From: Cymbidium sinense
Lineage: Eukaryota > Streptophyta > Magnoliopsida > Asparagales > Orchidaceae
Reading direction: 5' to 3'
NCBI GenBank assembly: GCA_021442155.1
Contig: JAKCPB010001392.1
Span: 100,490 to 164,489, forward strand
Length of the DNA stretch: 64,000 nt
Shown here: positions 4,561 to 64,000 of the stretch, in pieces
Layout of the letters: each line of letters starts with the position of its first letter
Position numbering within the stretch: position 1 is the stretch's first letter
Program-made: the position numbers and the translations under genes
The notes under the pieces: generated by a model
What the model saw: the letters and a program-made list of their open reading frames with translations, nothing else
What the model was told of the DNA's origin: nothing
Databases searched by the model: none

Positions 4561-6840
4561 CCACTTCTGAATGGACTCATCACATACTAACAGGGTCCAT
4601 ACATTAACTCAGATTAAATTAAACCCAATCTAATATTCCCTAGTGTAGTTAAATCACACCCTTCTCCCTAGTGGAGCCCCAAATCATATGTAAACAAGTC
4701 AAGCAAACAAGTCAACTTCAAAACCAACCTCCCGAGTGGAGCCAAATTAAATAAACTCCCCTTGTAGAGTCTAAATCAATAAAATCCAAATAAATTATTA
4801 TTCCCAGTGGATACATCCTCAAACAAATCTATGAAAATAAACTCAAATCCTAATCCCCAATGGATAGGTTGAACATGCTTCCCTAGTGGAAGGTTCATAT
4901 ACCCGATCCCAGAAGACTCTAGCCCATATATTTAGTAGATATGCCTCCACATCAATTAAAACAAATTAAATTAAAGTCAATTCGATCTTAATCCCCGATG
5001 GATTATAGATTTTTATCCCTAATGAATCTTCTTTCCACAAATCATATAATCAAATCTGATTCAAACCTTATCCCCAACAAATTTTCTTCTTCTATGCCCT
5101 CAAGATAGACCCCTCACATGTCATGTCCAATGCATGTGTGATCCCCTAGCAGATCTCCCTTCATGTCCTTCACATGGAATTCTCATCAAATCTCATTTCT
5201 CTTCTTATGCACACCTTTAATACTTCAACCAAAAGTCTAACAATGTATTCATTCAAATTACATCATCTTAACATTGTAATCAAAATTTTATGATTTATGA
5301 TGGTGCAAACTCAAACTAACTATACAATATCATGCTAAACATATTATAGTGTGGATTAACACACTATATTATATTATAATATATGATGTTATATTATAAT
5401 TTATTATAATATAATATATTGTCTAACATTACACCTCATTATAATCACTTAAAAGGAACAAATCATAAATTTTTCTCAAAATATGAATAATTTTCAATTT
5501 TGATGTAAAATTGTTATTTTCTATTAGAAATGGTACACAATATTATCATTTTGGTGTTGCTTATTGGTGTGTGCCATGAATTTGGCCAAATTCTTTCATA
5601 TCAACCTTCAAATTAACATTTTTTTGAGTTTTGACCCAATGTATTATAACAAAAGTAAAATATTCTGAAATGTATAATAACATTTAATAACAAACCACCA
5701 CATTCATATATATGTGAAGTTATATTCTTATGTACATTATATTTTAATATGCTTTCATATATTATATTATCTTACATTACACCTTAAAATGAATCACTTT
5801 AAGCAAAAAAATTTATAAAATTTGGTTGAAAAATAAATATTTATTTTGGATGCAAAATTTCATTCTTTGATTAAAGGACACACCATATCACACCAATGAT
5901 GTTCCTAAAGCTTACCTTAAATTTGGCCAAATCCCACCATCTCACCCTATAAATTAATATTTTTATAAATTATACCAGTACAAAATCTACTACATCATAC
6001 TATAATAAACTAAAATATGCTAAACAATAAGTTGTAATACACAATAGTATGCTATAATGCATGATGATACACTATGTTAGGGCATCCTATATTATTATAC
6101 ACTATAACATATTATATTATATTATATTATATTGCATATCACAACACAAGAGAATGCTTAACATAAAAAAATCATAAAATTTGTCTAAATAATAAAAAAC
6201 TATATGTTTTAGTCGTATCACTTTCATATTTTAAATTAAAATAATATATTTTGATGCCATGCTCTATCTATTATGAATTTGGCCAAATTCCACCATTTTA
6301 AAGTCTAAATCAACATTTTTATAAGTAATGCTAGTGTAGGCTCGACTGCTTGATTGTAAAATACTAAAAGAATTTAAATGCCTAGAATAATATATTATGA
6401 TATATGATGTTATACTAAGCTACAACATATAATATTTATTTTGAACATACAATCTTACTTTTTAGACAACAAGTGGCGTAGCACACCTTTGATACTACAA
6501 CCTAATTCTCACTTCAAATTTAACAAATTTCATCATCTGATTTGTTAAATTAATATTTTTATGATTTATATTAATATGGACTATAGGGCACAATACCATA
6601 ATACTAAAACATTTCAAAACATCTTATAACATCCAAAAACACATCACTACATGCTCAAATATATGATGCTACATTATATTATAAAATTTGGTATTATAAT
6701 ATGATTTAGGGTTAGGGTTTAAGGTATTCAAATCTCTAATAGTCAAGAGAAAGTTTATTGAAGACATTTTCTTTAGCTACCACAATTATGTTAGGATTAG
6801 GTCATTCTTTAGATGTACTCCTAATGACATCTTTATTCAA
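4310..6840. repeat. Copy 1 of a large direct repeat (second copy at about 33960-36375)
   Basis: This stretch lines up with 33960-36375 in the same order and strand, over shared blocks such as the ATATGATGTTATATTATAAT segment, the ATTTGGCCAAATTC blocks and the end block with TTCAAATCTCTAATA. Similarity continues through the step into telomere-like sequence (GATTTAGGGTTAGGGTTT, about 6703). By eye the copies differ by many substitutions and 1-5 base indels. Most of it is AT-rich, with self-complementary ATAATATATTAT-type runs around 5340-5420 and 6100-6135. It is probably the end of a retrotransposon tail duplicated together with its junction. I see no gene in it. Confidence 0.75.
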
Positions 6841-9800
6841 GGTTTGAGGTTTAGGGTTATTTTAGGGTTTGGGGTTTAGGGTTTAAAAGTCTAAGTTATA
6901 GGTCTTGTGGGTTTAGGTTTATGGTTTGGGTTTTAGGGTTGGTGGGTTTTTAGGTTTGGGTTTAAGTGGTAGGATTTATGATTTAGGTTTAGGATTTTAG
7001 ATTTGGGTTTTAGGGTTTAGGGTTTAGTATTTAGATTTAGAGTTTAGAAGTTTAGTTTTAAGGGGTTGTAGGTTTATGGTTGCAGGATGGGGTTTAAGGT
7101 GGTTAATTACCAAGATAAGGCTTAGGGTTAGGATTTAGGGTTCAAGATTTAGATTTTTTGTTTAAATAAGCAAAGGTAGTTATTTAGTTTAATTTTTAGT
7201 TTATGTTTTATTTTAATTTTAGTTTAGGTTTATGTTTATTTTGTTTAGTTTATTTTCATTTTATTAGGTTTAGGTTTTATTTTTATTTTTAGGTTTAGAT
7301 TTTATTTTATTTTTTTAGGTTTAGTTTTTAGGTTTTTATTTTAGGTTTATTTTTATGTTTTATTTTGTAATTAATATTTAGGTTTATTTTTTTAGTTTAT
7401 TTTATTTTATTTACTTTAGGGTATAGGTTTAATTTATTTTAGGTTTAGGTTTAGGTTTTATTTAATTTAGTTTAGTTTATTTTAGTTTAGGTTTAGGTTT
7501 ATTTTATTTTGTTTAATTTAGGTTTAGATATTTTGTTTAGTTTAGGGTTTAGATTTTATTTTTATTTATTTTTGGTTTAATCTATTTAGTTTTATATTAT
7601 TTTACTTTAGGTTTATTTTATTAATATTTTAGTTTTATTTTATTTGGGTTTTATTTTATTTTTAGTTTAGTTTAGGTTTTTATTTATTCATTTTAGTTTT
7701 ATTTTTTTTATTTTATCCATTTTACATTTAGGTTGTAGGTTTATTTTTTAAGTTTAGGTTTTAGTTTGGTTTTGTTATTTTTTTTTATTTTATTTTGTTT
7801 TAGGTTTATTTATTTATTTATTTATTTTGTTTTATTTTTATTATGTTTTAGGTTTTATTTTAGGGTTTTGGGAGTTTGAATTTTAGGATTGAGGTTGGTA
7901 CATTTTTTTATTATTTTTTAGGATTTATTTTATGGTTTAGTTTTAAGGTAGTTTAGGTTTAGTATCAGTTTTTATTTTTTTAGGTTTAGGTTTGTGGTTA
8001 GGGTTTAGTTTTTAGGGTTTTAGGGTATGGTTTTGGGTTTAGGTTTGGATAGTCAGGATTTAGCTTTTAGGGTCATGTAGGATTAGGGTTGGGTAGAGTT
8101 ATTAGGTAGGTATTTTGTAAGGTTAGTTTTAAAGTCAGCATATTTAGTATTTTAATTTATTTACATTTTATTTTTTATGTCCAGCTCATTTCATTTATTT
8201 AGTTTTATTTATTTTTTATTTATTTTATTTTAGGTTTAATTTATTTTAGGTTTATTATTTAGTTTATTTATTTTTAGGTTTTATGTTTATTTTCTTTATT
8301 TTATTTTATTTTATTTTATAGGTTTAGGTATTTTTTATTTTAAGTTTATGTAGGTTTTATTTTATTTTATTAGGTTTTATTTTTTTGTTTTATTTTTTTT
8401 TAGTTTATTTAGGTTTTATTTATTTTATTTTATTTTAGCCAAGTTTTATTTATATGAGGTTTGTAATTTAGAATTTAATAATTTAATTTTATATTTTATT
8501 TATTTGTTTTTTTAATTTATTTTATTTTGTTTTATTTAGTTTAAGTTTATGTTTTTTTTGGGGTTTAGGGTTTAGGGTTTAGTGTTTAGTTTTTTTGGTT
8601 TAGGGTTTACAATTTAGCATTGTAGGTTTTAGGGTTTAGGGTTTACAGAAGGGTAAGGGTTTAGCGTTTGGTTTTATTGGTTTAGGATTGAGGCTTTAGG
8701 GTTTACGGTAGGTTGGGGTTTTATTGTTTATTTTAGTTTTTATTTATTTTAAATTAATTAAACCTTAGGTTATTTAGTTTATCCAATTTATTTTATATTT
8801 ATTTTATTTTACTTTATTTTTATTTTATTTAGTTTATTTACTTTTATATACTTTATTTTTAGGTTTATTTGTATAAGTTTAGATTTTATTTTAATTTATT
8901 TTAGGTTTAGGTTGGTAGGTTTTAGTTTATTTTTTTGTGTAGATTTAGTTTTTTTATTTTATTTTAAGCTTTGATTTTATGTTTATTTTAGGTTTTAATT
9001 TTTTAGTTTAGGTTTAGGTTTCATTAGTTTATTTTATTTAGTTTAGTTTATTTTTAGGTTTAGGTTTATTTATTTTAGTTTAGTTAATTTTAGTTTAAGT
9101 TTAGGTTTTTTTATTTTATTTTAGTTTAGGTTTTTTTTCATTTAGGGTTTAGGTTTATTGTTTATTTTTTTTATTTTATATTTTTTAGGTTTAGTATTTT
9201 ATTTATTTGATTTTATTTTATGTTTGTTTTTTTATTTTAGTTTAGTTTAGGTTTTATTTTTTTTACTTTAGTTTAGTTTTATTTTTTTATTTTATTTTCT
9301 TTTTATTTAGGTTTAGGTTTGTTTTAGTTTATATTAAGATTTTAAGTTTTATTTATTTTAACTTTAGATTTTTAGCTTTTTAGGGTTTAGGGATTAGGGT
9401 TTAGGGTTTAGCATTTAGGGTTTAGGGTTTTTGTGGTTTATGATTTTCAGGGTTTAGAATTTAGGGTTGAGAGTTTAAGTTTTAGGTCTAGGGTTCCGGT
9501 TTTAGTTTAGGGTTTAATTTTATTTAGTTTAGTTTATTTAATTTAGGTTAATTTATTTTAGTTTAGTTTTTTTATTTTAGTTAATTTCTTAAGTTTAGAT
9601 TTATTTTTTATAGTATTATATTTATTTTATTTTTTTAGGTTTAGGTTTTATTTTTATTTTTAGGATTAAGTTTAAGTTTTATTTTATTTTTTTTGTTAGG
9701 ATTTTTCTTTTTATTTTAGGTTTATTTTTAGGTTTTATTTATTTTTAGTTTAGGTTTAGGTTTATTTTGAGTTTATTTTAATTTATATAGGATTTAGGTT

Positions 9801-10431
9801 TAGGATTTATTTATTTAGTTTAGTTTATTTGAGTTTAGGTTTAAGTTTATTATATTTTTATTTTAGGTTTAGGTTTTTTTGTTTAGCTTAGGATTTAATG
9901 TTTTTAATTCATTTTATGTTTTATTTTATGGTTTATTATTTTGATTTAGGTTTCAAATTATTTTTATTTAATTTTATTTTAGCTTTATTTGTTTAGGTTT
10001 AGTTTAAATTTTTTTTAGGTTTTTTATTTTTTTAGTTTAGTTTAAGTTTATTTATTTGTTTTATATTTTATTTTCTTTTTAGGTTTAGGTTTAGGTTTAG
10101 GTTTAGTCAGTTTTTATTTTATTTTATTTTCATTTAGGTTTATTTATTTATTTTATTTTAGGTTTTATTTTTGATTTAGGTTTTTAGCTTTTTTTTTAGG
10201 GTTTAAGGTTTAGGGTTTAGGTTTAAGATAGATTTAGTTTTTTTTATTTTATTATATTATTCTTTTCGTGGTTTAGGGTTTAGGGTTTAGGTTTATTTGG
10301 GTGTCAAGTTTAGGGTTTAGGGTTTTACTGGTGAGTTTAGGGTTTAGGGTTTAGTTTTTTTAGGTTTAGGTTTGGGTTTAGGGTTTAGGGTTTATTTAGG
10401 TTCATGTTTTTAGTTTTAGGGTTTGGATTTT
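6840..10431 (+). repeat. Degenerate plant telomere-like array T1 (TTTAGGG, TTTAGG, TTTTA variants)
   Basis: The G-rich strand is on +. TTTAGGG and TTTAGGTTTAGG tracts (6840-7140, 7990-8110, 8560-8700, 9375-9510, 10200-10430) alternate with long TTTTA/TTTAT-rich tracts (7180-7860, 8150-8560, 8720-9360, 9520-10190). A junction motif (T run, then TTTAAATAAGCAAAGG) lies at 7155-7176, at the start of a TTTTA-rich tract. There are no genes. It could be an interstitial or subtelomeric array, or partly a basecalling artefact of telomere sequence. Confidence 0.85.
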
Positions 10432-10866
10432 TGGTTTTTCAATAGAGAATAAGATTCAACATCTCTTCTTTTGATTTCATCAACCAAGTAACACACCATG
10501 TTTAAAACATAAGCAACATAGATAAAAAAATGAGAATAGCAAATCAAAACCCTAGATAACTAGAACTATCCCTACTATAAAGACACAGTTCCATAAGCTA
10601 ATTTGGATCTTCTTTAGTTTCTCCTCATCCAACAGCCTCTGAGTAGCGTGATCCACCCTTATATCCTAGATCTCCCTTGCCACCACCATAGTAACCTCCA
10701 TCACTCCTCCCGCCTCATAACCACTTGCCACCATCACCTCCATATCTACCACACCTAGATACCACCACTACGATAATGGCCTCATCCGCCTTCACTTTCA
10801 CCGCTAGATCTAGATTGAGTCTGGTTGATGGTGATGTTCCTGCCATCAAGGTTCTGCACATTCTTA
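10432..10866 (-). pseudogene. 5'-truncated retrocopy of a glycine-rich RNA-binding protein mRNA (copy 1)
   Basis: Read on the minus strand from 10866, the sequence starts within the end of the RRM RNA-binding domain (LDGRNITINQTQSR, about 10800-10855). It continues into a glycine-rich tail (GGRSDGGYYGGGKGDLG, about 10650-10715) and then into 3' UTR-like sequence ending near 10440. The family normally has about 150 residues: an N-terminal RRM and a C-terminal Gly/Tyr/Arg-rich tail. Only the RRM end and the tail are present. There is at least one in-frame stop in the Gly region. No intron is seen, and the downstream end meets a short T run (antisense of poly(A)) beside telomere-like DNA. The 5' cut is at AAGAATG, the same point as in copies 2 and 3. 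It is best read as a processed pseudogene made by LINE machinery. Confidence 0.8.
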
Positions 10867-10875
10867 GGGTTTAGG

Positions 10876-12200
10876 TTTTTTTAAGGGAAATTTGGGGAAT
10901 TATATTGCCATAAAGAAAAAGTACAAAGTCCTTAGAGGGGGTACATTTCTTAACAAATGCTCAAAGAGCCATAATAAGCCCTGAAGAGATAAACCCCCTA
11001 AATATTACAATAATATAAGGAAAAAACAAAGCAGAACCAAAACAAAATCAACAACAACAATAGATCCATGTGCGCAATAAAAACATCCACTAGGTCCTTT
11101 GATACTAAGAAGATCCACCTGCAAGATTCTCCCAACCTATAAAAGGAATCTACAACATACTAATGAAAGGATGAGTATAATTAAGCAAGCATAAGGAGTA
11201 TGAGCAAAGAAAATGAGCAAAGTAAAGAAAAGGCTCAGGCTAAGTTACAATCATCTCAAGGAGAAATACTATATGTAAGCATCCAAACTTTTGGAGAAGA
11301 GTTACAATTACATATAATGCTACTAGCCAAAAGAAGATTGGGAGGGAAACATCAACCATCATTTCCAAAGATACCTCTTATAGCCCATCATCCCAAGTCC
11401 ATCTTAAGGTTGCAAATCCAAGCGCATTATCCAACCACAGAGCCTTAAAATAAATAAGCCTAATAAGGCAAAAAAATCTACCAACCATCAGGGACAGCAG
11501 TAGTACAGTAGGAACACCACCAAAGCCACCACCAAAGACCCCACCAAAGAGGAATAGGAACATCAAAGGGAGCAAGCATCATGACCTTAACAACACAAAC
11601 TAGAGAAAACCAAGACCAAAAAGGAAAAAACACAACAGCTCATGTCCTTCACAAGAAAATAGGAAAGGCAGCAAGGCTTTCACCCAAACCTAAAAAAGGG
11701 AAGCAGTAGCAACAAAGAAAGAAGAACCATAGTAGGAGCAGGCCAACCAGCATGTCCCCAATAGAGCAAGAAAGAAAGGCCAAAACATCCACCCATCCAT
11801 CCAACCCGAAAAAAATAGCCAACCAACCCAAATAAAATTGTCACCAACCATCACAAATAGCAAAAAAATTGAAATCGTGGAAAGACCATCCCTTCATGCC
11901 AAAACCACCCAAGATAACCAAGAAGAAAAGTGTAGAAAATAGTAGCATCCACCAAACCCAACCAAAAGAGATAAATTTTGATCCGGGTGAGGTGAAAATC
12001 TAGCCAAAAACTAAATGATACAAAGACCAGTAAGATAGATTAAAAGCCATCCATCAGGAGCAGCAGCAATACAACAGGAACACCACCAAAGCCAATAGAA
12101 AAAAGGAGGATAAATATCAATGAGTGCAAGCATCATAACCAGACCCAAGTTAGGCACCAACACACTAAACCAAGTTACCAGATCTCAAATAAAAACAACA
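10876..12200 (-). mobile_element. LINE A: 5'-truncated L1-type LINE, 3' end only
   Basis: The 3' terminus lies at the T run 10876-10882 (antisense poly(A)) directly after TTTAGG. The first 350 bp closely match LINE D (63250 onward), including ACAAAGTCCTTAGA, GATAAACCCCCTAA and GATCCACCTGCAA blocks, and share the GCATCCAAACTTTTGG block (11279) with LINEs B and C. No RT or endonuclease is present, so only the 3' untranslated region survives. A block at 11478-11590 is repeated at about 12045-12140, giving an internal repeat with a period of roughly 570 bp. The other end abuts the truncated LTR of E2 near 12200. Minus-strand ORFs at 11378-11575 and 11649-11831 look like composition effects. Confidence 0.75.
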
Positions 12201-12219
12201 GCCATTTATTCTTTTGCAG

Positions 12220-15960: not shown

Positions 15961-15999
15961 AAAATTCAAATTCAAAACATAAATGAACCTATCGAAGCA

Positions 16000-36452: not shown

Positions 36453-36489
36453 TTTTTTTTTTTGATAAAACCCACAAAGGGGAGAAATT

Positions 36490-37500: not shown

Positions 37501-37999
37501 GAAGGACAAGTCATAATAAGGAAACTTAATACCCAATTTAGAAGCAACAAACTTGTAACCTCTAAAATGAGTACCACTAAGAAGCAATTGTGTAAAGATA
37601 AATTTTTTTCTTTAGTCATAATAATCCTCTTATGATTCATAGGCACATTATGATGTTTAGCATGATTTCTATCAAGCCAAATAAACCAAATCAAAGTAAC
37701 ACCCATAATAATTTTGATATGCCCTTTGACAACATTAAGAAAGTCAGAGCTAAGGAGCTGCATTAAATTAAAATTACCATTAAAAGAATTAAGGTTGAAT
37801 AAGTCCTCATACCAATTCCAAACTTTAGAGGAAATAGCACCATTAACAAATACATGACTAACATTCTCAATATAAAAAAACACAAACATTTAGAAGGAAG
37901 ATAAAAACCTTCTCCAAAAGTAAAGAATCAACAGCAATAAAACCCCTTAAAATCCTCCAAACAAGAATAGAATAAGAGGTAGGAATAATGTTATTCCAA

Positions 38000-41040: not shown

Positions 41041-42531
41041 GAAGAAGATCGAGTCGATTTAGAAACTTTAGGAGGAAAATTTTTGAACTATTTTTTCTTT
41101 TCAAAAAAATAGTTTGAAAACCAAGTTTCATTTCCCAAAGATTCATCAGTATTAGAACTCTTAACAACTATAAATTTGGTAGGAGATTCCCAGTGATAAG
41201 GCCCTAAAGCATTTTTATCAATTAATTTAGAAGAAAGCATAAGCAAACTGCCATCAAAATTAGCAGTTAAAGAAGCAGTAGAAATAGATTTGTTAAGCAA
41301 GCAAGAAATAGGTTGCACAAAATCCATCGTATCCATACCATCAACATCTTCCATATTTAAAGAATTCAAATCATCATTTTCTTTTAGAGGTTCTTGAAAA
41401 TCAAAAAGAGAAACATTATCTTTAAAATTTTTAGGTTGTAAAACACAAGTATCTTTAAAGGAAGAAATCAAAACAAGATTAGCATCATCTTGCACAATTC
41501 CTAAAAAAAAAGAATAAAAGCAGCTGAAATCTAGTTTTCATTCAAAACAACATGTTCATTTTTAGCATTAATTTCAAAACCATTCTCATAAGGTAAAGCT
41601 TTAGAAAGATTTATAATACCATTAACAACATCTTTATCTTTTCAAAAGAAGTAAAAAATTTATTTTTATCAGTTAAATGATCTCCAGATTGATCAACTAG
41701 CTTAGGAATTTTAATAGATTTTTACTTAAGTTGAGGATGAGCAGTGAAATAATCCAAAAAGACATGTCCATGGGTTTTACAGTGATTGTAAAAACCAGGA
41801 AGGTTTTTAAATTCAATAGACTGAAAATAATAATAATTTTCAAACCCTATCAAAATCTCCTTAGGAAACTTCTTTGTAACATTAATTTCAACAAGGATAT
41901 GACCAATTCAAGGTGAGACTTAGTTGCTTGATCAATTTGTAAAGGTCTACCAAAAATAGACCCAACTGCATGAAGAAATTGATAATTAACAAAATGAATC
42001 CTAAGATTAGGCAAAGCAATCCAAACCAGCACTATAGGAGATTCTTCTTGAATGTCAAAAAAGGAGTCCATTTAAGAATGCACATTTGATAATTTTTAAC
42101 ATAATAAGAATGACGAGAGAAAATTTGGCTATAGTCAAGATCATTAGATAACTTAATGAGGACATGACCATCCAACAAACTGATTGAAAATGCACCAAAA
42201 GCTTTAAATCATGAAAGAAAAATTGAATATCTTCCATATTAGATAAAGAAAATTTACCAATTAGAGTAAAGACATAAGGTTTGGTGAGTTTCTCAATATC
42301 TAAATTAGAACTCATTATAGCCAGAACGCCTTTAAAAGTCATATGAACAAGAGTAATCAAAAATTCAAGGGAGGTTGAAGTATCCTTACCAAGTAAGGCA
42401 TCTTTGAAGGATTTAGAAGAACCAACCTTAGATTTACCCAACAAAATATTTGCCCTAGGAGGAGTAGTAAAAATCATTTGTTTAGCCTTGCCAAATGTCA
42501 AATTGAACTCCATGGCAGCCATCAAAATCAA
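41041..42531 (-). pseudogene. LINE B ORF1 remnant: DUF4283-like region and damaged zinc knuckle
   Basis: ORF1 proteins of plant L1-type elements bind the element RNA. From the N terminus: MAAMEFN (42522), then KSFKDALLG (about 42400), a DUF4283-like block SPIVLVWIALPNLRIHF..GRPLQIDQAT (42045-41920), a zinc-knuckle remnant HCKTHGHVF (about 41760-41795) with the first Cys missing, and an acidic C-terminal part (41495-41088). The pieces fall in at least three frames. The layout is the same as LINE C ORF1. Confidence 0.75.
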
Positions 42532-42667
42532 TGGAGAGGAGGACAGCCGGCCAAAGGTGAAAAAATGAAGGGCTTATTAGTGAACATCCTCACATCAGCT
42601 AAGAGAAATGATGAAGGAAAATGGGGTTCTTGAATCCAGATTTTGAAAGGGGAAGGCACATGAAAGG

Positions 42668-42933
42668 GTTTTAAATTTGTTTAGGTTATTAGTTAGGTTG
42701 GGGTGTGGGTTTAGGGTTAGGTTTAGGTTTAGGGGTTTAGGTTTTAAGGTTTGTGGTTTAGGGTTTAGGTTTAGGTTTAGGTTTAGGTTTAGTGGTTTAG
42801 GGTTTAGGTTTAGGGTTTAGGGAGTTTAGGTTTAGGAATTAGGGTTTAGGGATTGTGGATGTTTAGTTTAGGGTTTAGGTTTAGGTTTATGGTTTAGATT
42901 TTAGTTTATTTTAACTTTTAGTTTAGTTTAAAG
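42668..42933 (+). repeat. Telomere-like array T3
   Basis: TTTAGGG, TTTAGG and GGTTTAGG variants between the 5' end of LINE B and the T run of GRP copy 2. No gene. Confidence 0.9.
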
Positions 42934-43397
42934 TTTTTTTTTTAATAGAGAATAAATTTAGATTCAACATATCTTCTTTTCAATTTCATCAACCAAGTAT
43001 CACCCCAAGTTTTCTAAAACACAAGTGATGACATAGATAAAAAATCATCACCCATAGAGCAAATCAAAAACCCAAGATAAGTATAACCATCTCTACTATA
43101 AAGACATAGTTCCATAAGTAGCAGATCGAATAAGTCATTCTTCAATTTCTATAGTTCATAACTAACCCTATCTCTCAGTAGTGGATCCGCCATCGAACCT
43201 TGAATCTCTTCTGCCACCACCATGACTTTAACCTTTGTCGCTCATCTTGCCTCAAAAACCACCAATACTCTGACCATAACCTTCATATCCACAAGCACCT
43301 TCAGATTCCCCACCACCACGTTTGCCACCCTCCTTCTATCCATCGGGTCTAGACTTAGCCTGACATGATGTTCTGCCATCAAGGTTTTCCCATTCTT
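42934..43397 (-). pseudogene. GRP mRNA retrocopy 2, 5'-truncated, with poly(A)
   Basis: The 10-T run at 42934-42943 is the antisense of a poly(A) tail. It follows telomere-like sequence and precedes the 3' UTR (AATAGAGAATAAATTTAG). On the minus strand, from 43397, the retained coding part begins AAGAATGGGAAAACCTTGATGG (read as the NLDGR end of the RRM) and continues into a Gly-rich tail (KRGGGESEG and YEGYGQSIGGF, about 43240-43320). A stop follows the RRM end. It has the same 5' cut as copy 1 and is followed by telomere-like repeat. Confidence 0.8.
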
Positions 43398-43497
43398 TGG
43401 TTTAAGGTTTAGGGTATGTAGGGTTTAGGGTATGGGGTTTAGGGGTTTAAGTTTTAGTTTAGGGTTTATAGTTTAGGTTTAGGGTTTAGGTTTAAAG
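43398..43497 (+). repeat. Telomere-like array T4
   Basis: About 100 bp of TTTAGGG and TTTAGG variants separating GRP copies 2 and 3, ending TTTAAAG before the next T run, as the array before copy 2 also does. Confidence 0.9.
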
Positions 43498-43880
43498 TTT
43501 TTTTAATAGAGAACAAATTTGATTCAACATTTCTTCTTTTCAATTTCATTAACCAAGTAGCACCCAAGTTTTCTATGTGCCATGACATAGATAAAAAATG
43601 AGCCCCATAGAGCAAATAAAACCCAAGATAAGTAGAACCGTATCTACTATAAAGACAGTTCCATAAGTATATCGATTGGTCATTCTTCTTCTCCACTTCC
43701 ATCAAACTACCCTTACCTCAGTAGATCCGCCATCATATATCTAGATCTCTTTCCATCCACCACTATAACCTCTTTTCCTCACCCTATAACCAACACTGCT
43801 CAGCCACACTTATCCACCATCACTAGAGCTTTTCACTCCATCTAGGTTTATGAGTGTGATGTCAAGGTGTCATTTTTGGA
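43498..43880 (-). pseudogene. GRP mRNA retrocopy 3, more decayed
   Basis: The T run 43498-43504 follows TTTAAAG and is followed by AATAGAGAACAAATTTG, as in copy 2. The 3' UTR part (43505-43690) matches copy 2 closely. The Gly-rich and RRM-end part (43720-43880) is badly eroded, but the TGGAGTGAAAAG and ACACCTTGACATC remnants line up. Starts of copies 2 and 3 lie 564 bp apart, so they form a tandem pair together with the intervening array. Confidence 0.7.
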
Positions 43881-46800
43881 TTTGGGTAGGTTAGTATTTA
43901 GGGTTTGAGTTTTAGGGTTTATGTAGGGTTTAGGGTTTAGGGTTATGATTTAGGGTGGTTTAGGGTTTAGGTTATTAAATTAAGGTTATAGTTTTTTAGT
44001 TTAGATTTTGGCTTTAGACTTGGATAGTTGGTTTATGGTTAGTATATGGTTTAGGTTAGTATTTTTAGGTTTTTTTTTAAAATTAAGCAAATTTTATTTT
44101 ATTTTTAATTTATTTAGTTTATTTATTTTTTATTTTTATTTTTTTATTTATTGGTTTTATTATTTTTTTAGCATTTTATTTTATTTATTTAGGTAGTTTT
44201 AGGATAGTTTTAGGATATAGGTTTTAGGTTTAGGTTTATCTTTATTAGCCAAGTAGGTTTAGTTTAGTTTTTATTTGAGTTTTATTTATTTTTATTTAGG
44301 TTTTTATTATTAGTAGTTATTTTAGTTTATTATTTATAAGTATTTAGGTCATTAGTGTATTTATTTATTTGGAAGTTTATTTAGAGGTTTTAGGAGGTAT
44401 TTATGGGTTTATTAGTTTAGGCTCAGGTTTTAGTTATTTATTTAGTCATTTGGGTTTATTTAGTTAGGTTTATTAATTTTAGGGGCCCAGGATTATTTAT
44501 TTATTTAGGTTTATTAGTTTAGGTTTAAGTAGTGGGTTAGGGCCTGGGTTGTGGGTTTGGGAGTTTTAGGTTTAGCCCAGGGTTTAGTAGGGTTTAGTTA
44601 TTAGGATGATTTGGAGGTGATAGTAGTAGGAGGGCCCAGGGCCCAGTGGGATTTGGTTTGGGTAGGTTAGGTTTAGAGTAGAAGTGTTAGAAGTAGGTTA
44701 GATTAAGGTTTAGGGAGGATTAAGATTTAGGTTTTTAAATTAAAATAGTAGGTTTATTTTATTTAGTTTATTTTATTTATTTATTTTATATTTATATTTT
44801 TATTTAGTTTATTTATTTAGTCTTTTATTTTAGTTTTTTTATTTTGTTATTTTTTTTGTTTATGTTTGTTTTTAGTTGAGTTTTATTTTATTTTTTAGTT
44901 TAGGTTTGGTTTTATTTTATTATTTTTTAGTTTAGGTTTTAGGTTTTATTTTAGGTTATTTTTTTATTTTTATTTTTGTAGGTTTATTTTAGTTTATTTT
45001 ATTTTATTTAGTTTAGGTTTAGGTTTAGTTTATTTTAGTTTAGTATTAGGTTTATTTTATTTTATTTTATTTATTTTTTAGTTTAGGGTTTATTATTTTT
45101 ATTATTTTAGGTTTATTTTTTATAGGTTTATTTTATTTTATTTTATTTTATTTTATTTAGTTTTATTTTATTTAGTTTAAGTTTATTTATTTATTATTTT
45201 TTATTTTATATTTATTTTATTTTTAAGTTTAGGTTTACATTTTAGATTTTATTTTATTTATGTAGATTTATTTATTTTATTTGGTTTATTTAGATTAGTT
45301 TAAGTTTAAGTGCAGTTTAGTTTAGGCTCAGTGTAGAGTTTAGAGTTTAGTGTGGCTAGTTTAAGATTTAAGGAGTGTTTAGGGCCTGGGTGTCATTGTG
45401 GATTTAGGGAGGGTTTGAGGGTAAAGAGTCAGTGATTGGTAGAGTAGAGTTAGAGTGGGAGTGTGTTTTTAGGTTTAGGGTTTTTAGGGTTTAGAGGTTT
45501 AGGTTGTGGGAGTTAGTGGTTTTTGGGTTTAGGGTTTAGGGAGGATTAGATTTAGGGTTTTTAAAAAAGAAAATCAGTTTAGTTTATTTAGTTTATTTTA
45601 TTTTTATTTATTTATTTATTTTATTTATTTTTTTTATATTTTAATTATTTATTTATTTATTTATATTTTAGATTTTTATTTTATTTATTTTTAGGTTTAA
45701 GTTAAGGTTTATACTCATTTAGCTTTATTTTATTTTATTTTATTTTTTTAGGTTTAGGTTTTATTTTAATTTATTTAGGTTTAGGTTTTATTTTAGTTTT
45801 ATTTAGGTAATATTTTAGTATTTTTATTATTTATTAATTAGTTATTTATTTAGTTTATTTATGAGGTTTAGGTTTTATTTTTAGTTTAGTTTAAGTTTAT
45901 TTTATTTTATTTAGTGGTTTTATTTAGGGTTTAGGTTATATTTATTTATTAGGTTTTATTTTAGGTTATTTTTTAGGTTTAGGCATTTATTTAGTTTTAT
46001 TTTATTTTATTTTAAAGTTTATTTTTTTTATTTTATGTAGTTTTATATTATTTGTTTTTATTTTGGTTTATTTTATTTTTTAGTTTATGGTTTTATTTAT
46101 TTATTTTATTTTAGTTTTATTTTATTTTATTTTATTTTACATTTATTTAGGTGGGTTTTAGGTTTAGGTTTAGTTTTATTTTATTTTATCTTATTTAGGT
46201 TTAAGTTTTATTTATTTATTTTAGGATTTATTTAGTTCCAGCTTTTGTGGTTTAGTTTAGTGTTTAGGGTGTAGGCTTTAGGGTTTAAGGCCCATGGTAG
46301 TGTTTAGGTTGTGTGCAAGGTTTATTTATGGCTCAGTGGTTTATGGTTTAGTTGCAGCTCAGTTAGGTAGTTTATCTTAGGCCCATGTTTAGGTTTTATT
46401 CTCTTTAGCCTATTTATCTTAATTTAGGTCAAGTATTTTATCTTATATTAGGTTTATCTTTAGTAGGTTTATCTTTATCTTTAATTTATCTTAGTTTTAT
46501 TTATCTTATTTTAAGTCCATCAGAGGTTAGCTCAGGTTTAGGGTTTGTTAGGCCCAGTGGTAGGGTATAACCCAGGTGGAGGTTTAGGCCCAGAGGGTTT
46601 AGGGTTTGTGGGAGGCCTCAGTGTAGCATGGTCTTGGTGGGCCCAGGTTTAGGCTCAGCCTGAGTGAGGGCTTAGGCTCAGGTGTCAAAGGGCTGGTGGC
46701 CCAGGTTTAAAGTTAGGGCCCAGGATCTGCAGTGGCCTAGAGTAGTGGTCAGGAGTAAATTTGGTCAGCTCAGTATGATTGTAGAGAGGAGGAGGTAAGG

Positions 46801-48637
46801 TCAGGAGGTCATGGTCATTAGTAGAGCCTCAGTGGTTGGGTGGCCTGTGGCTCAGTGGAGGTTAGGAGTTTAGGGGGAGGTGTGGTCATGGGTCAGGTTT
46901 AGGGTTTAGGTCAGGGTCAGTATGGTAGGATGGAGGGTCAGGGTCCAGGGTCAGGGTTTGGGGTTTAAAAAAAAAAATTAAGCAAACCGCATGTTTAGGT
47001 TTATTTAGTTTATTTTATTTATTTTAACTTATTTTGTTTTATTTTATTTAGTTTATTTTTAATTTATTTAGTTTATTTATTTTAGGTTTATTCATTTTAG
47101 TTTATTTGTTAGTTTAGGTTTAGGTTTATATTTATTTTTAGTTTAGTTTTTATTTTATTTTGGATTTTTTAATTAGATTTTATTTTATTTTTAGGTTTAG
47201 GTTTAGTTTTATTTTATGTTTATTTTTAGGGTTAGGGTTTTAGGTTAAAGTTTAGGGTTAGTGGTTTAGTTAGGTGGTTTGGGTTTAGGGTTTAGGATTT
47301 AGGGTGGGGTTAGGTTTTAAAAAAAAAAAAGTAAAAGGCATATTTAGTTTATTTAGTTAATTTTTATTTATTTTTATTATTTTATTTCTATTTTATTTAA
47401 GTTTTTTATTTTAGTTTTAGGTTTAGTTCATTTATGATTATTTAATTTAGTTTTATTTTATTTTATTTTTAGGTTTTATTTTTATTTTTAGTAGGTTTAG
47501 TTTTAGGGTCAGGTTTAGTTGGTGGAGGGATAGTATGGTGGGGTTTAGGGTTAATTTAATTTTAATTTTAAATTAAATATACCCAAGTTTAAGTTTATTT
47601 TATTTATTTTAGATTATTTTATTTTTATTATTATTTAGTTTATTTATATAGGTTTCTTATTTATTTTTATTTATTTTATTTATTTTATTTATTTATTTAT
47701 ATTTATTATTTTATATCTTTATTTATTTTTTTTTATTTTAGTTTTTTTATTAGTTTTAAAATTTAAGTAAGTTTATTTATTTTATTTAGGAAGTTTAGGT
47801 TTAAGTGTATGTTTAGGCCTGTGGTAGGACTCAGATCTGGGGTGGGGGGTCAAGTTTGTGGCCCAGTAGGCCTGTGGTTAGGTTTAGGGTAGGCCAGGGT
47901 TTAGGGCCCAGGGTAGGGTAGTAGGTCAGCTTAGGGTCAGCCTGGGCCAGTGAGGAGTAGGGCCAGTAGGGTGTGGCCTGGGCCCAGAGTCAGTGGTCAG
48001 TGTCATGGCTCAGTGGTCAATTTAGGGTCAGTTTAGGTTTAAGTTTGAGTAGGGTTTAGGGCCCAGGTGGCCCAGGGTCAGTGGAGTCAGATTTAATGTT
48101 GGGTGGGCTGGAGGTCAGTTAGGATTTCTTTAATTTAGCAAACCAAAGGTCAGTGATCTAGTTTATTTTTTATATTTTAATTTATTTTATTTATATAATT
48201 TAGTTTATTTATCGAGTCATGTTTATCTTAGTTTATTTTAGGTTTAGATCAGATTTTGATTTTAGTTTAATTTTATTTTAATTTTATTGTGCCTAGTTTT
48301 ATGTTTATTTAGTTTAGGTTTAGGTTTTAGGTTTAGGATTTAGGCATATGTTGGGTTTAGGGTCTTGGGCTCATGACAGGCCAGGGAGGTTTAGGGTCAG
48401 TTAGTTGGGTTAGTAGAGTTAGGCCTGTGGTTTTAGGTTTTAAGTAGTAGGTGGGTCTGTAGTAGGTTTAGGTTAATGCTGTGGTTTAGGGAGTGTGTGA
48501 TTTAGGTGTGGGTTTGGGGGTTTGGGGTTTAGGGTTTAAGGTTTTAGGTTTAGGTGTGGAGTGTTTAGGGTTGTAGGTTTATGGTTTTGAGTTTAGGGTT
48601 TAGTTAGTTTAGAGGGTTTGTGAGTCCAAAGATTGGG
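43881..48637 (+). repeat. Telomere-like composite array T5 with ordered variant blocks
   Basis: Eight array units begin with the junction motif at about 44070, 44732, 45558, 46963, 47314, 47555 and 48125. After the motif, TTTTA/TTTAT tracts change to TTTAGG, then to TTTATC and CAGG words, then to G-rich GGGCCCAGGG, GGTCAGG and TTTAGGG words, before the next motif. The gradient is clear from 44735 to 45558 and from 45577 to 46962. The G-rich part at 46540-46960 and 47800-48120 is the least telomere-like. The ORF at 44008-44196 is a by-product of T-rich repeats. Confidence 0.8.
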
Positions 48638-49785
48638 ATTTATTAAATTAAAACATACCGCTAAACAAAAATCTATAGAAAAAAAGAGTGAGAGAAGATT
48701 GGGATTAGAATAAGTTTTACATGGTTGAAATGGAATTGTGTTAAAAAAATTACATTTATCCTACTAAGATCAATTGTTTAGAGTTTTACTCGCTAAAGCA
48801 AAAAAACCAAAATTACAAATGAGTACATGAACAAATTTGAAGTATTATTATTATCTTCTAAAATTAGAGAAAGATTAAGCTAATGTTGTGTAGGTTTAGA
48901 TAAACTTGAGCCCTAAACTTAAAAGAGACACTACACAAAATTAATTTGCATGTGGCTTTTCAACAAACTTTAGATTTCAAATAACATCAAGAATTTTGCA
49001 CCTAAAAGAATGTCATCAAATGTAGAATTATTCTTTCCCCCATTAAATCAAATTCAAATGAATACATCTAAATGAAGTAACACTACTACTAATAAAAAAA
49101 TAGAAAAGATGATAAATACCATGTTGGGATCCAAAATCTCTCTTAAATCATTTATTTGATGTCAACATAAAATCTATGAGTGTCTTAAATCTCTCACAAA
49201 ACTATGCCACCTATTTCTAAGCATTGACTTAGTAGTTTTATTTGAGCTTTCTTGCTTTGTGTTGAAGTGAATTATTTGTTACATTATGTTGCCGTCAAAG
49301 TTCTCAAAGTAGAGCTATAGTTCGAAATCTCTATGTAGAGATATTGAGTTTGGATTATTCTTGTTACGCACTACTTATTAAGAGAGTTTTTTAGATACAA
49401 TCATTATTGTAAAAATCTCATTCAACAATACTTTGCATCAAGTCTCCCTAATTCGCCAAGATCTCGAGCACAGTCTCAAAGCATTGAAATCCTACTAGAG
49501 AGAGCTTTTTAAAGCATAGATTTAGCTCATGACATATCTGCTAAATTGAAAGAGGTGTAGTTGAGAAGACAATATCGATTAGAGAGGAGTTTTATGATTA
49601 GATAGCTATCGAGAGGATTGCTCACAAATGGACACTTAGTGTCTAAACTTAGTATTCTTTCTTCATTTGTCTATGAAAAGAAGCTACCCTTTGCATCTCA
49701 TGAAACTTGAGAGGCTCACCATGGCATACACATACAATTTTTTTTTATATTAGAGAAATTTAATCATTTGTAGTGAAATCTCTTT
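48638..49785. mobile_element. Unidentified 1.15 kb insert within telomere-like array
   Basis: Ordinary-composition sequence between arrays T5 and T6. It starts after a junction-like TTTATTAAATTAAAACATACC (48641-48659) and ends near the T-rich stretch 49739-49747 and AGTGAAATCTC. It has no long ORF, no protein similarity I recognise, and no terminal inverted repeat I can see. It may be another retroposed transcript fragment or an unrelated element. It has no second copy in this window. Confidence 0.5.
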
Positions 49786-51626
49786 TATTTAGTTTAGGTT
49801 TAGGTTTAGGTTTTTTGTGATTTAGTGTAGTGGTTTGGGGTTTAGGTTTGGGGTGTGGTGGTTTAGGTTGTGGTTTAGGGTTTAGGTTTAGGGTTTAGGG
49901 TTTAGGGTGTGTGGGTTTAGGTTTAGAGTTACTTTAGGTGGCTTAGGGAAGTTTTTATTTATTTATTTTTTATTTTAAATTAAGTAAACCAATGATTTAG
50001 TTTATTTTATTTTCTATTTTATTTAGGTTTATTTATTTAGTTTAGTTTATTTATTTTAGGTTTATTTATTTTAGTTTAAGTATTTTAATTTATTTTTAGG
50101 TTTAGGTTTTAGGTTCATTTTAGTTTAGTTTTAATTTAGGTTTTATTTTATTTTTGAGGTTAAGGTTTTATTTTACTTTTAGGTTTAGGTTTTAGGTTTT
50201 ATTTTAGGTTTATTTTAGGTTTTATTTTTAGTTTAGGTTTAGGTTTATTTATTTTATTTTATTTTATTTATTTAGTTTTATTTAGTTTATTTATTTAGAT
50301 TTAGATTTTATTTATCATAGTTTAGTTTATTTTAGTTTAGGTTTTTTTTTTAGTTTAAGGTTTAGGCTTTATTTTTTATTTATTTTTAGGTTTAAGTTTT
50401 TATTTTATTCTATTTTAGGTTAATTTTAATTTTATTTTAGGTTTAGTTTTTATTTTATTTAGGTTTTTTTTTAGTTTAGTTTATTTTATTTATTTTTTTA
50501 TTTTATTTTATTTTTATTTTTTTTAGGTTTATTTATTTAGGTTATAGTTAATTCTTTTTTTAGGATGTTATGATTATAGGTTGTAGTTGGGTTTAGGTCT
50601 TTATGATTTAGGTTTAGGGTTTAGGGTTTAGGGTTTAAAGTTTTTTTTAATAATTAACAAACCAAAAGGTTTTATTTATATATTTAGTTTATATTTTATT
50701 TATTTTAATTATTTATTTTTTATTTTATTTTTATTTTTATTTATTTAGTTTAGTGTATTTATTTTAGGTTTATTTATTTTAGCTTAAGATTTTTATTTTA
50801 GTTTATTCTTTCAAGTTTAGGTTTACTTTTTAGTTGAGTTTTATTCTTATTTTATTTTTTAGGTTTAAGTTTTCCTTTTATAATTTTTAGGTTTTAGGTT
50901 TTATTTTATTTTTTAGTTTAGGTCTAGGTTTTTTAGGTTTATTTTAGTTTTAGTTTTAGTTTAGGTTTAGGTTCATTTTAGTTTATTATATTTATTTAGT
51001 TTAGTTTAGGTTTAGGTATTTATTTTAAGTTTAATTTATTTAGTTTATTTTATTTGTTTATTTTATTTAGGTTTATTTTATTTATTTTATTTATTTATTT
51101 TATTTTTTTACATTTTGGTTTTATTTTAGTTTATTTTTTATTATTTTATTTTTAGGTTTTATTTTATTTATTTTATTTTATTTTTTTATATTATTATTTA
51201 TTTTTATTTTATTTATTTTATTTAGTTTAGTTTATTTTATTTTTACTTTTTTATTATTTTATTTAGTTTAGGTTTTAGGTTTTATTTTATCATATTTTAT
51301 TTATTTAAGTTTAGTTTATTTATTTTATTAGGTTTTATTTAGAGGTTTAGAGTTTAGGATTTAGGGTTTAGGGTTTAGTGGGTCAGGTAGGATTAGTTTA
51401 GGGTCAGGGGAGTGTGTGGTGATTTGTGGTTTAGATTAGTGGAGGTTAGAGTAAGGTTTAGGGTCTGGGTTTTAGTTTAGGTTTAGGTTAGTTAGGGGTG
51501 GTTTTGGTTTGGTGGGTTTAGTTGTGGTTTAGGGTTTAGGTAGGTTTAGGTTTTAGGGTTTAGGATTTTAGGGAGTTTAGGGTTTATGGGGTTTAGGGTT
51601 TAGGTGGTTTAGGGTTTGGTGGTGGG
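49786..51626 (+). repeat. Telomere-like composite array T6
   Basis: Two units start at junction motifs at about 49970 and 50640, the second with the same TTTAAAG + T run lead-in as the GRP copies. TTTTA-rich tracts (50000-50560, 50690-51330) give way to TTTAGGG and GGTTTAGG (51340-51620). It ends at LINE C. Confidence 0.85.
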
Positions 51627-59671: not shown

Positions 59672-62600
59672 GTTTAGTTTAGGGTTTTAGGTTTATGTTA
59701 GGATTTAGGGTTTTGCTATGTTAGTTTAGGCTGAGGGTTTGTGTTTTTTTTAGTTTTTAAATTAAGTAAACTAGTAGATTTAAATTTATTTAGTATAGTT
59801 AGTTTATTTTAGATTTAATTTTTATTTTTATTTAAGTTTTTTTTTATTTTTATTTAGTTTAGTTTATTTATTTTTGGTTTATTTTTTAGGTTTAGGTTTA
59901 GCTTTAGGTTTATTTTTTAGTTGAGTTTTATTTTTATTTTGTATTTTATGTTTAAATTTTATTTTTTTTTATTCTTAGTTTAGGTTTAGGTTTTATTTTA
60001 TTTTGTCTGGTTTTTTTAGGTTATTTTAGGTTTATTTTAGTTTATTTTATTTTATTTAATTTAGGTTTAGGTTAAGGTTTAGTGTATTTTAGGTTTTATT
60101 TATTTTAGCCTAGTTTATTTTAGTTTAGGTTTAAGTTTATTTTATTTTGTTCATTTTATTTTATTTTAGGTTTAGATTTTTTTTATTTAGGATTTTAGGT
60201 TTTATTTATTATTTATTTTTTAGTTTATTTTATTTATTTTTTAGGTTTAGGTTTTATATTTTATTTTATTTTATTTATTTATTTATTTTATTTTATTTAG
60301 GTTTTTATTTTATCTTTTAGTTTAGTTTAGGTATTTATTTTATTTAGTTTTTATTTTATCTTTAGGCTCAGGCCTAGTTTTGCAGGTTTATCATTTATCC
60401 TTAGTTTAGGTTTATTTATCTTATTTTTGTGGCCTTAGTTTTTAGGAGTGCTCAGGCCCAGGCTCAGGTCTGTGAAGGTCAGGGCCCAGGCCTGGGCCCA
60501 GGGTCTGGGTCGGGGGCCCAGGTGAGGGCTTTGTGGTCTTGTGGCTGGCCTGGGTCTGGGGCCTTGGTGGATTTAGCCTTTGGTCCAGTGTAGGGTCTGC
60601 CAGGACTGCACAGTGGTCAGGCCTGTGGGCTGTGGGGTTTTTACTTTTATTTATTTAGGATTTATGGTGTAGAGTGCCCAGGGTCATTGTGATTGAGTGG
60701 TGGGTGTGGATTTTGGATTTAGTGCTTGTGGAGGGTGGATTTAGGGAGAGTTTGTGGTTATGGTATGTTTTTAAATTAAGAAAACCTGTTTAGTTTATTT
60801 AGTTTATTTATTTATTTAGTTTATTTTATTTTATTTTTTTTTTACATTTTATTTAGTTTAGTTTATTTATTTTAGTTAGTTTTTATTTTAGTTTATATTT
60901 TAGGTTTAGTTTATGATTTTATAGTTTAGTTTTTATTTTATTTTAGTTTAGTTTATTTTTATTTTTAGTTTATTTTATTTTAGGTTTAGGATTTAGGTTT
61001 TATTTTAGGCTATTTTAAGTTTTATTTTTTTTTAGTTTATTTTAGTTTATTTTATTATATTTAGTTTAGTTTTGTTTAGTTTATTTGCATAGTTTAACTT
61101 TTATTTATTTAGATTTATTTTATTTATGCCAGATTTATTTTATTTTTTATTTTATGTTTTATTTATGGTTTAGGTTTTATTTTTATTTATTTTAGGTATT
61201 TATTTTAATTTATTAGATTTTATCATTTTATTTTATTTATTTTTTATTTATTTTATTTAGTCTTATTTTATATTATTTTATTAATTTAAGTTTTAGTTTA
61301 GGTTTTACTTTAGGTTTTATTTTATTTTATTTTAATCCATTTAGGTTTAGTTTTTTATTTATTTATTTATCATTTAGCCTAGTTTTGTGTTTGGCCCAGT
61401 GGCTCAGGGCTGTAGTTTTGGTCAGGGGTCTAGGGTCAGGGCTTGGTTTGTTTAGGTTTAGGGCCCAGGCCTGTTTATGGCCCAGTGGCCTGTGGGTCAG
61501 GCTCAGTGGAGTCTGGCTCAGGTTTAGGGTCCAGTTTAGGTCAGGTTATTTTATTTTTTTTTAAATAAGCAAATAGTTTAGGTCATTTTATTTATTTTAT
61601 TTATTTTAGTTTATTTATTTTATCTATTTAAGTTTATTTTATTTTTATTTATATTTAAGCATTTTATTTTCTTAGTTTATTTTATTCTAGATTTTATTTT
61701 ATTTAGGTCTATTTTAGTTTAGTTTAGGTTTATTTATCTTATCTTAGTTTCATTTTATTTTATTTATCTATTTTAGAAAGTTTTATTTATGTTTCTTATC
61801 TTATCTTGTGAGGTCAGAGTGGTCAGGCCTGTGGAAGGCATGTGGAGGTCTTAGGGCCCAGGGCCCAGGGTAGGCTCAGTGGTTGGGGTTTAGGGTTGTA
61901 GGGCTAGGTCAGTGGTCAGGTTTTATTTTATTTTATTTAGTAGTCATAGTGGCTCAGGTTAGAGTTTAGGGTCAGGTTTGGGGCCCAGGGTTTGGGGTTA
62001 GCCCAGGGCTCAAGTTTAGGGTTTATGGTTTATTTTAATTAAGAAACCACCAGTTTTAGTTTATTTTTATTTATTTTAGTTTATTATATTTATTTTATTT
62101 TATTTTACTTTATTTTATTTTAGTTTAGTTGATTTATTTTAGTTTAGGTATTTTATTTTAGTTTATTTTTTAGGTTTAGTTTATTTTATGTTTATTTCAA
62201 GTTTATTTTATTTTAATTTTAATTTTAAGTTTTGGATTTATTTTTATTTTAGGTTTAGGTTTTATTTTATTTTGATATTTAGGTTAGGTTTTATTTTATT
62301 TAGGTTTAAGTTTTATTTTTTATTTATTTATTATTTTATTTTTAGTTTAGTTTATTTTTTTAGGTTTAGTATTTATTTTAGTTTATTTTATTTTAGTAGG
62401 TTTAGGTTTATTTTATTTGTTTTAGGTTTATTTTTTAGTTTATGGTTTAAGTTTCATTTTTATATATTTTAGGTTTATTTCTTAGGTTTAGGTTTTATTT
62501 ATTTTATTTTATCTCATTTTAGTATTTTATTTTTGTATTTATTAGGTTTTATTTTAGGTTTATTTATTTTAGTTTAGTAGGTTTTATTTATTTTATCTTT

Positions 62601-63249
62601 AGTTTAGTTTTATCTTTATTTTCCTTGTTTCAGCTTATCATTTTATTATTTTTATTTCTATCTTATCTTAGGTTTATTTAGTAGTTTGAGCCCAGGGAGT
62701 GATCAGGCCTAGGGTCAGGCCCAGGGCCTGGGGTTTAGGGCCCAGGATTGTGGTTTGGGTGGGTTTGGGGATGGGTGGGGTTAGGGTTTTGGGGTCTTGG
62801 TTGTGGTAGTAGAGGGCAGTGGTTTAGGGTTTGGGTTTATTTTTTTTTAAATTAAGCAAACTTATATAGTTTATTTATTTTATTTTATTTATTTAGTTTA
62901 TTTATTATATTTTTTTATTATTATTTATTTTATTTTATTTTATTTTATTTTATTTATTTTATTTAGTTTTTATTTTATTTAGTTTTAGGTTTATTTTGTT
63001 TTTATTTTAGGTTTAATTTTATATTATTTAGGTTTTTTTTAGTTTAGTTTAGGTTTCTATTTATTTTATTTTATTTTAGTTTTTATTTTTGATTTTATTT
63101 TCTTTTAGGTTTAGGTTTTATTTTATGTTTTAATTTAATTTATTTTTATATTTTATTTTGGTTTTTTTATTTCTTTTATTTTTATGTTTTATTTAGTTTT
63201 GGTTTAGGTTTTAGCTTTTAGGGTTTGGGTTTGGGTTAGTTTAGGTTTT
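59672..63249 (+). repeat. Telomere-like composite array T7 with ordered variant blocks
   Basis: Junction motifs at about 59744, 60768, 61554, 62034 and 62839 divide it into units of about 1020, 790, 480, 800 and 410 bp. Each begins TTTAGTTTATTTATTTTATTTT, passes through TTTAGG and then TTTATC/CTTATCT words (60345-60425, 61735-61805, 62590-62670), and ends in G-rich CCCAGG, GGTCAGG and GTGG words. The ORF at 62188-62472 is low-complexity and rejected as a gene. Confidence 0.8.
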
Positions 63250-64000
63250 AGGGAAATTAGGGAATTTTTATTGCAAAAAAGTACAAAGTCCTTAGATGGG
63301 CTAAATCTCTAAGCTAATGCTCAAAGAGCTACATTAAGTCCTAAAGAGATAAACCCCCTAACTATTACAATACTCAAGGAAAGAAAGCAAAAGAAAACAA
63401 AAAAATCAACAGTAGAAAATCCATGTGAGCAGCAACAAACTTCATTTGGTCCTTCTGATACCAACAAGATCCACCTGCAATACTCCCCTTGCCTATAAAA
63501 GAAATCTGCAACATAATTTTGAAAGGATGAGTACAATTAAGCCAACATAGAAAGTAAGTGTAAATAGAAGGAGTAAAGTAAAGAAAAGGCTCAAGCTCGC
63601 CATAATCATCTCAAGGAGCAACACTATATGTAAGCAACAAACATCGAGAAGGGTTACAATTACATATACTACCAACCAAAAGAAGAGTGGGAAACATCAA
63701 TGCCATCATAGCCAGAATTAGCCCATCATCCAAAGTCCATCATCCAATACAATCCTCCAAACAATAAACATAATAGCCAACCACCAAGCCAGAACAACCA
63801 AGCCCAATAAGCAGATAATCAACCAACCATCGGATAAGAAAGAATATAGTAGGAGCACCACCAAAGCCACCACCAAAAGGAATAACAAAATCCAAAGGAG
63901 CAAGCATCATGATAGGGTAAACACAAACCAGATAAATAAGAGCAAAAAGAAAAAAGTGCTCATATCCTCCACCAACAAAGTAGAAAAAGATCTAGTAAAA
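63250..64000 (-). mobile_element. LINE D: 3' end of a LINE, continues beyond the window
   Basis: The 3' end begins after TTTAGGG at about 63250 (GGGAAATTAGGGAATTTTTATTGC) and closely matches LINE A over at least 600 bp, including the ACAAAGTCCTTAGA, CAAGATCCACCTGCAA and GGAGCAAGCATCATGA blocks. No long T run remains at the junction. The coding part, if present, lies outside the window. Minus-strand ORFs at 63321-63903 are hydrophobic and low-complexity. Confidence 0.75.

Follow-up and report, generated by a model that had tools for sequence, protein, structure and literature searches.

One-directional L1-type LINEs in telomere-like DNA of the orchid Cymbidium sinense

What could set several retroposons in a single stretch of a plant genome pointing the same way, each in contact with telomere-like DNA? 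This question is raised by a window of 64,000 nucleotides of Cymbidium sinense (C1342:100490-164489, ending where its contig ends), which we analysed within its 3.53-Gb assembly of 2174 contigs. The window holds four long interspersed nuclear elements (LINEs A to D) and three pieces of a glycine-rich RNA-binding protein mRNA (GRP1 to GRP3). As the original prediction had claimed, all seven lie on the minus strand within or adjoining TTTAGGG-type DNA, and the word TTTAGGG occurs 132 times on the plus strand versus 6 times for CCCTAAA. The four junctions it singled out are also as described: the T-runs at 36453-36463, 42934-42943, 43498-43504 and 10876-10882 each directly follow a G that belongs to a telomere-like unit. 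Exact CCCTAAA makes up at most 5.8% of the window's arrays.

Our overall explanation, to which we give a probability of about 0.7, is that L1-type plant LINEs would insert into telomeric TTTAGGG-type DNA, exclusively so within our samples. There, the LINE RNA would be reverse transcribed from a primer on the G-rich strand, whose 3' end would be exposed mostly after GGG or within TTT. Reverse transcription would usually start at the poly(A) tail, so that the copies read G-strand, T-run, antisense LINE. The GRP pieces, and perhaps an AT-rich unit ending in ..GGTTTACTTAATT-A(n), look like users of the same machinery in trans. The LINE B and LINE A-GRP insertions would have multiplied later with their flanks, by duplication or through mobile DNA of other kinds, and the target would since have decayed in large part.

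Target, orientation and register of LINE C-type copies

A 21-base signature of the LINE 3' end, TTTGTGGCAATAAAATTCCCC, matched the assembly at 1896 sites (948 forward, 948 reverse), and the reversed control of this pattern had zero matches in the assembly. CCCTAAA lay 5-35 nt past the signature at 428 of the 948 forward sites, and TTTAGGG at 0 of 948; the reverse-strand tally for CCCTAAA was 591, with some sites double-counted. Together with the samples described below, this genome-wide test settles the matter of chance for the LINE C type.

We also picked 20 sites by spacing from 100 listed signature sites on contig C1 (0-47 Mb). Their 3' flanks were telomere-like, in C-sense and with an A-run of at least 5, at 20/20 sites, and TTAGG was counted 0 times. 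By the same criterion, with either sense accepted, 6 of 20 random places in the same C1 stretch were telomere-like (Fisher p 3e-6). CCCTAAA fell in the 5-35 nt window at 9/20 of the position-sampled sites; since this resembles the 45% for all forward sites, the C1 sample seems representative of them. Thus, two of the outcomes that the original prediction had named as contrary to it, LINEs mostly outside telomere-like DNA and both orientations within it, were absent. Among the random places (C1 0.3-47.4 Mb, L142-L161), one more (L156) looked GRP-like by eye; telomere-like DNA may make up near a third of this stretch.

All other samples consist of best-scoring copies. In the LINE C 3' sample (30 loci of 40 scored, of 4306 candidates, window copy counted), C-sense telomere words outnumbered G-sense words in the ~1.49-kb flanks of 30/30 loci (5-66 versus 0-2), the weakest flank, L041, having 5 against 2. 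Ahead of the LINE C 5' ends (20 of 39 other copies; 40 scored of 551 candidates), C-sense telomere-like DNA was present in 20/20, with 3-11 CCTAA and 0 TTAGG, and several junctions read ..AAACCC and then LINE. In these samples, which are not exhaustive, the copies were thus confined to telomeric repeats on both sides (20/20 position-sampled 3' flanks, 20/20 best-scoring 5' flanks).

Do the insertions also favour one place in the heptamer? We listed 85 distinct sites with CCCTAAA nearby, dropped three in which CCCTAAA was the LINE's own end, and kept 82. An A-run was present at 73/82 junctions; at 36 of these it ran straight into an exact CCCTAA, and at 14 into one with a single mismatch (50/73 together). 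The registers CTAAAC and TAAACC occurred at none of the 73 A-run junctions, in a set pre-chosen for nearby CCCTAAA. The A-run was missing at 9/82, with fusion seemingly at or near CCC. At the 20 unconditioned sites, the A-run led into CCCTAA exactly in 7/20 and with at most one mismatch in 12/20; among the A-runs that lie within arrays of the window, the shares were 4.2% and 8.1% (p 1e-5 and 5e-9). One orientation and one favoured place in the heptamer were therefore both observed, and the CCCTAA excess at the unconditioned sites indicates that the target at insertion was probably the canonical telomeric repeat rather than AT-rich DNA at large.

This excess speaks against a mere taste for T-runs of the ordinary L1 type, by which insertion would have no telomere specificity and TTT/A would be offered by one strand of TTTA-rich DNA alone, the G strand. 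Such a taste would explain the orientation alone, and TTTA-rich DNA is plentiful in the random control. However, it leaves the 20/20 LINE sites against 6/20 random places to be accounted for, and the canonical CCCTAA is favoured despite the AT-rich TTTATTTTA blocks, better T-run targets, that take up much of the arrays in the window. We therefore consider this explanation improbable.

Separate insertions and amplified founding junctions

One-directionality could also be inherited from a few events, if the arrays were amplified satellites that by chance carried a small number of old pieces of LINE and GRP. We compared flanks between copies, with unrelated array pieces as the control and its 99% level, median and maximum as yardsticks. 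Among the LINE C pairs that are at least 90% alike (n=77), flanks exceeded the control 99% level in 15 and lay at or below the control median in 47; only 3/190 flank pairs of the position sample exceeded the control maximum, and the LINE C 5' flanks formed 12 groups among 20, the biggest with seven copies. An inherited flank can still be recognised when it is present, as in L033 and L035 (LINE 94%, flank 81%). Because near-alike copies mostly carry unrelated flanks, LINE C represents many separate insertions, and most similar copies have separate histories unless recombination exchanged their flanks. The same variation between copies rules out, for LINE C, that the telomere-like DNA is part of the LINE RNA.

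Some LINE C copies may nonetheless have been copied together, as amplification would predict. Copies with a 5' truncation have telomere-like or GGCCC-rich DNA ahead of the cut, and one truncation is common to L044, L045, L050 and L052, L049 and L056 being different; L044 and L050 lie 2.6 kb apart at 211.28 Mb of C1, L045 and L052 elsewhere. Blocks rich in GGCCCAGG stand upstream of the truncated copies L044, L045, L049, L050 and L052, and also occur in the window's arrays (46500-46960, 47830-48110, 60430-60600, 61390-61550). The window's own LINE C (51627..~59677) is full length and degenerate; its 3' part contains an internal tandem duplication (52590-53097 / 53308-53832).

For LINE B and the LINE A-GRP unit, shared flanks are the rule. 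LINE B (36464..42668) is full length and degenerate, and its 3' end meets a telomere-like tract and T-run (36372..36463). This junction, with its tract of ~80-100 bp, was the same in 30/30 loci (the window's own among them; taken from 40 that were scored out of 2387 candidates), at least 1.5 kb past it was common to 14 aligned loci, and ~30-45 bp beside the LINE at its 5' flank were common to 8/8 (8 of 39 other listed matches). The window has an 84%-alike block in two copies, 4302-6854 and 33954-36390, both ending at a telomere-like tract, and at least 1.5 kb of it travels with LINE B in the 14 aligned loci.

LINE A is present as its 3' part only (10883..12218) and is joined through an A-run and the linker CCTAAACCCTAAG (10864..10882) to GRP1 (10437..10863), a 5'-truncated mRNA piece whose label was given by eye, after the original prediction. 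The order LINE A 3' end, A-run, CCTAAACCCTAAG, GRP was the same in 20/20 other copies (of 39 other listed matches, 5181 candidates), and the DNA beyond GRP was also the same in those 20. From the comparison of its two long terminal repeats (LTRs; 12219-13707 and 32208-33679, 86% alike), the 5' edge of LINE A at 12219 is the start of a later LTR retrotransposon (12219-33679, with gag/pol-like open reading frames by eye), not a LINE insertion end; the retrotransposon lies directly beside LINE A and seems to have cut it. A tandem repeat of ~97 bp lies at 14718-15500, and look-alike DNA was seen by eye at the start of C2 (L066).

LINE B and the LINE A-GRP unit thus go back to one founding junction each, amplified later. 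GRP2 (42944..43398) and GRP3 (43505..43880), whose 3' ends meet telomere-like tracts with T-runs at 42669..42943 and 43399..43504, are 80% alike, and the match starts ~13 bases ahead of their T-runs. The original prediction had cautioned that copies made by tandem duplication are not independent, and rightly so: the shared GRP2/GRP3, LINE A-GRP and LINE B junctions rule out seven independent events, and the seven window copies come down to fewer founding events.

Amplified satellites therefore account for LINE B and for LINE A-GRP, in which all sampled copies share flanks, and fail for LINE C, in which they do not. They also leave aside that LINEs B and C differ by 21-29% in aligned pieces outside the 3' end, yet have the same habit. 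As a general explanation, we hold amplification to be rather implausible. Similarity between LINEs B and C is 71-79% in the aligned pieces and reaches 85% in 61 bp at the 3' end, LINE A is 76% like LINE D, the 3' part of which runs off the contig end (63247..64000), and LINE B is 77% like LINE D over 157 bp of the 3' end. From these similarities, at least three lineages (A/D, B and C) therefore share the habit.

What kind of LINE is this? In Pfam, RVT_1 matched LINE C at 1.4e-10 and LINE B at 4.4e-4, the latter a weak reverse transcriptase (RT) piece below the cut-off, and DUF4283 matched both above the cut-offs (LINE C 7e-10, LINE B 4.6e-7). RVT_3 was above the cut-off in LINE B (3.7e-8) and below it in LINE C (0.1), and a weak zf-RVT match in LINE C (9e-4) was below the cut-off. 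The best relatives of the RT among solved structures were LINE-1 ORF2 (E 8.9e-5). Judged by these predicted parts (RT, DUF4283, zf-RVT or RNase H-like), the LINEs are L1-type plant LINEs. As a candidate trace of an APE-type endonuclease, a GDFN-like stretch was noticed by eye only.

The priming end

How was the primer supplied? Nearly all junctions are as expected if the 3' end of a G strand was the primer and oligo(A) the start of the template, the nine without an A-run being set apart. They thus agree with the priming step of the original prediction; its further proposals, a natural end or a break as the source of the primer and later addition of repeats by telomerase, are possibilities.

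One possibility is attachment at natural chromosome ends: the terminal overhang would prime, telomerase or recombination would re-cap the 5' side, and later rearrangement would move the mosaics inside. The fixed orientation, the oligo(A) junction, the telomere-like DNA on either side and the lack of detected target-site duplications are all consistent with it, as is L177, in which ~50 bp of telomere-like DNA separate a LINE 3' end from the LINE C 5' end that comes next. At C1 0.3-3.5 Mb, moreover, 13/15 signatures point in the left-arm sense, an expectation of our own. However, at C1 4.7-8.9 Mb 14/14 sites point in the opposite sense, so that a simple end polarity is rejected. Sites also occur on at least 17 of contigs C1-C18, mostly distant from the ends, and several assembled ends stop inside arrays of either sense (L064, L068, L073, L074, L079). 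Word counts and the outermost 70 bases revealed no clean terminal repeat at 18 assembled ends of 9 chromosomes. Over the 100 listed C1 sites, the number of sense runs was ordinary (p 0.10) and the longest, of 14, was unusual (p 0.002). End attachment is therefore possible but somewhat unlikely. Because the copies are dispersed inside chromosomes and 6/20 random places are telomere-like, insertion into existing internal arrays is at least as likely as chromosome-end priming.

A wider role for such attachment would involve a third partner. In the window, the ends of AT-rich blocks carry a GGTTTGCTTAATT-like motif, after which come A or T runs and then telomere-like DNA. We counted 12 such 3' ends in the window (at most 3 substitutions; 112 raw matches on both strands), through a filter that was set post hoc and requires C-sense flanks, which makes it blind to reversed copies and no test of orientation. 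Two lie in the telomere-like and AT-rich array adjoining GRP1 (6861..10436, G strand on plus; motifs at 7176 and 8764), five in a mosaic of TTTAGGG-like, AT-rich and GGCCC-rich blocks (43890..51626; 44093, 46988, 47583, 48144, 49990), of which ~48640-49780 is other DNA, and five in the mosaic at 59678..63246 (59772, 60786, 61575, 62049, 62862); all three are read on the minus strand. Genome-wide, the motif version with CCCTAAA within 2-32 nt gave 858 forward and 1289 reverse matches, some double-counted. These counts, conditional on a nearby CCCTAAA, are no more than suggestive of the AT-rich unit as a third partner.

An AT-rich non-autonomous RNA present in abundance might, along with LINEs and pieces of GRP mRNA, have been joined successively to G-strand ends, with telomeric repeats added between attachments. 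The telomere-like part of the genome would then be, for the most part, what a retroposon-telomere cycle has produced and left inside the chromosomes in a land plant of the telomerase type, a tentative idea that we think rather unlikely. Such a cycle can be likened to rotifer terminons and Drosophila arrays.

Several observations weigh against priming by the G strand of telomeric DNA as the general explanation. The telomere-like background is high, so that the LINE sites are enriched in such DNA no more than about threefold and the orientation is the stronger part of the evidence; the position sample and its random control come from C1 0-47 Mb only, and the other samples from best-scoring copies. 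At a few of the 428 sites, the CCCTAAA is part of the LINE's own end or overlaps with it (the three of 85 distinct listed sites, plus some of the nine without an A-run). Recombination within arrays could have swapped some flanks after a single insertion. Target-site duplications, which the original prediction had expected to be lacking, gave no signal (own pairs 5.7 versus crossed pairs 5.0 in 11 elements, L052 being mis-parsed). Finally, neither a Pfam match nor a meaningful PDB match to an APE-type endonuclease was obtained with the short pieces searched. The endonuclease or end that would supply the primer is inferred, as are the help given in trans to other RNAs and the sequence in which the steps took place.

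Relation to known telomere-linked retroelements

SART and TRAS have an oligo(A) junction and lie in TTAGG repeats, mainly at chromosome ends. HeT-A, TART and TAHRE, of the Jockey clade in Drosophila, stand in one orientation with poly(A) toward the priming end. How do the LINEs described here compare? The sections of PMC10088271 on which we draw name telomere-associated retroelements in insects, Giardia, a fungus, a lizard and rotifers; from Viridiplantae, they mention Zepp of Chlorella alone. Like SART/TRAS (R1 clade; Bombyx, Tribolium), as described there, our LINEs are non-LTR elements in telomerase-type repeats with an orientation fixed per lineage; unlike them, they have an L1-like RT, lie in TTTAGGG repeats, often at internal sites, and share their arrays with other RNAs. 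The AT-rich units resemble the Drosophila tandem repeats that, in the same sections, carry poly(A) tracts in the orientation of the transposons. Drosophila lacks telomerase repeats, whereas here telomere-like repeats lie between elements, and attachment to chromosome ends is no more than a possibility.

Zepp, also in PMC10088271 as far as consulted, is likewise a green-plant LINE found at telomeric repeats, but in an alga, whereas here the arrays are internal and the genome is large and, by its TTTAGGG repeats and DUF4283 LINEs, plant-like. The fungal FoTeRs, with which MoTeR can be grouped as a close known system, are likewise flanked by telomeric repeats on either side, with junctions that differ between the 5' and 3' ends and with unresolvable target-site duplications, in the part of PMC12857005 consulted; they are reported at chromosome ends, unlike the internal arrays found here. 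Interstitial telomeric-like repeats of seed plants, the subject of PMC8621592, are similarly telomere-like DNA inside plant chromosomes, but the portion of that account at hand describes neither a LINE insertion system nor such amounts.

A land-plant telomere-specific LINE is absent from those portions of the literature that our search covered, including PMC8621592, PMC10088271, PMC9498494 and PMC12857005. This LINE group is apparently a plant variant of the telomere-linked retroelements, assigned neither to SART/TRAS nor to HeT-A, and apparently unreported in land plants. If true, land-plant LINEs would depend on telomeric DNA at a scale that shapes chromosomes, with pieces of host mRNA travelling along. 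The growth of internal telomere-like arrays, and the specificity of an L1-type endonuclease for TTTAGGG, would thereby become testable.

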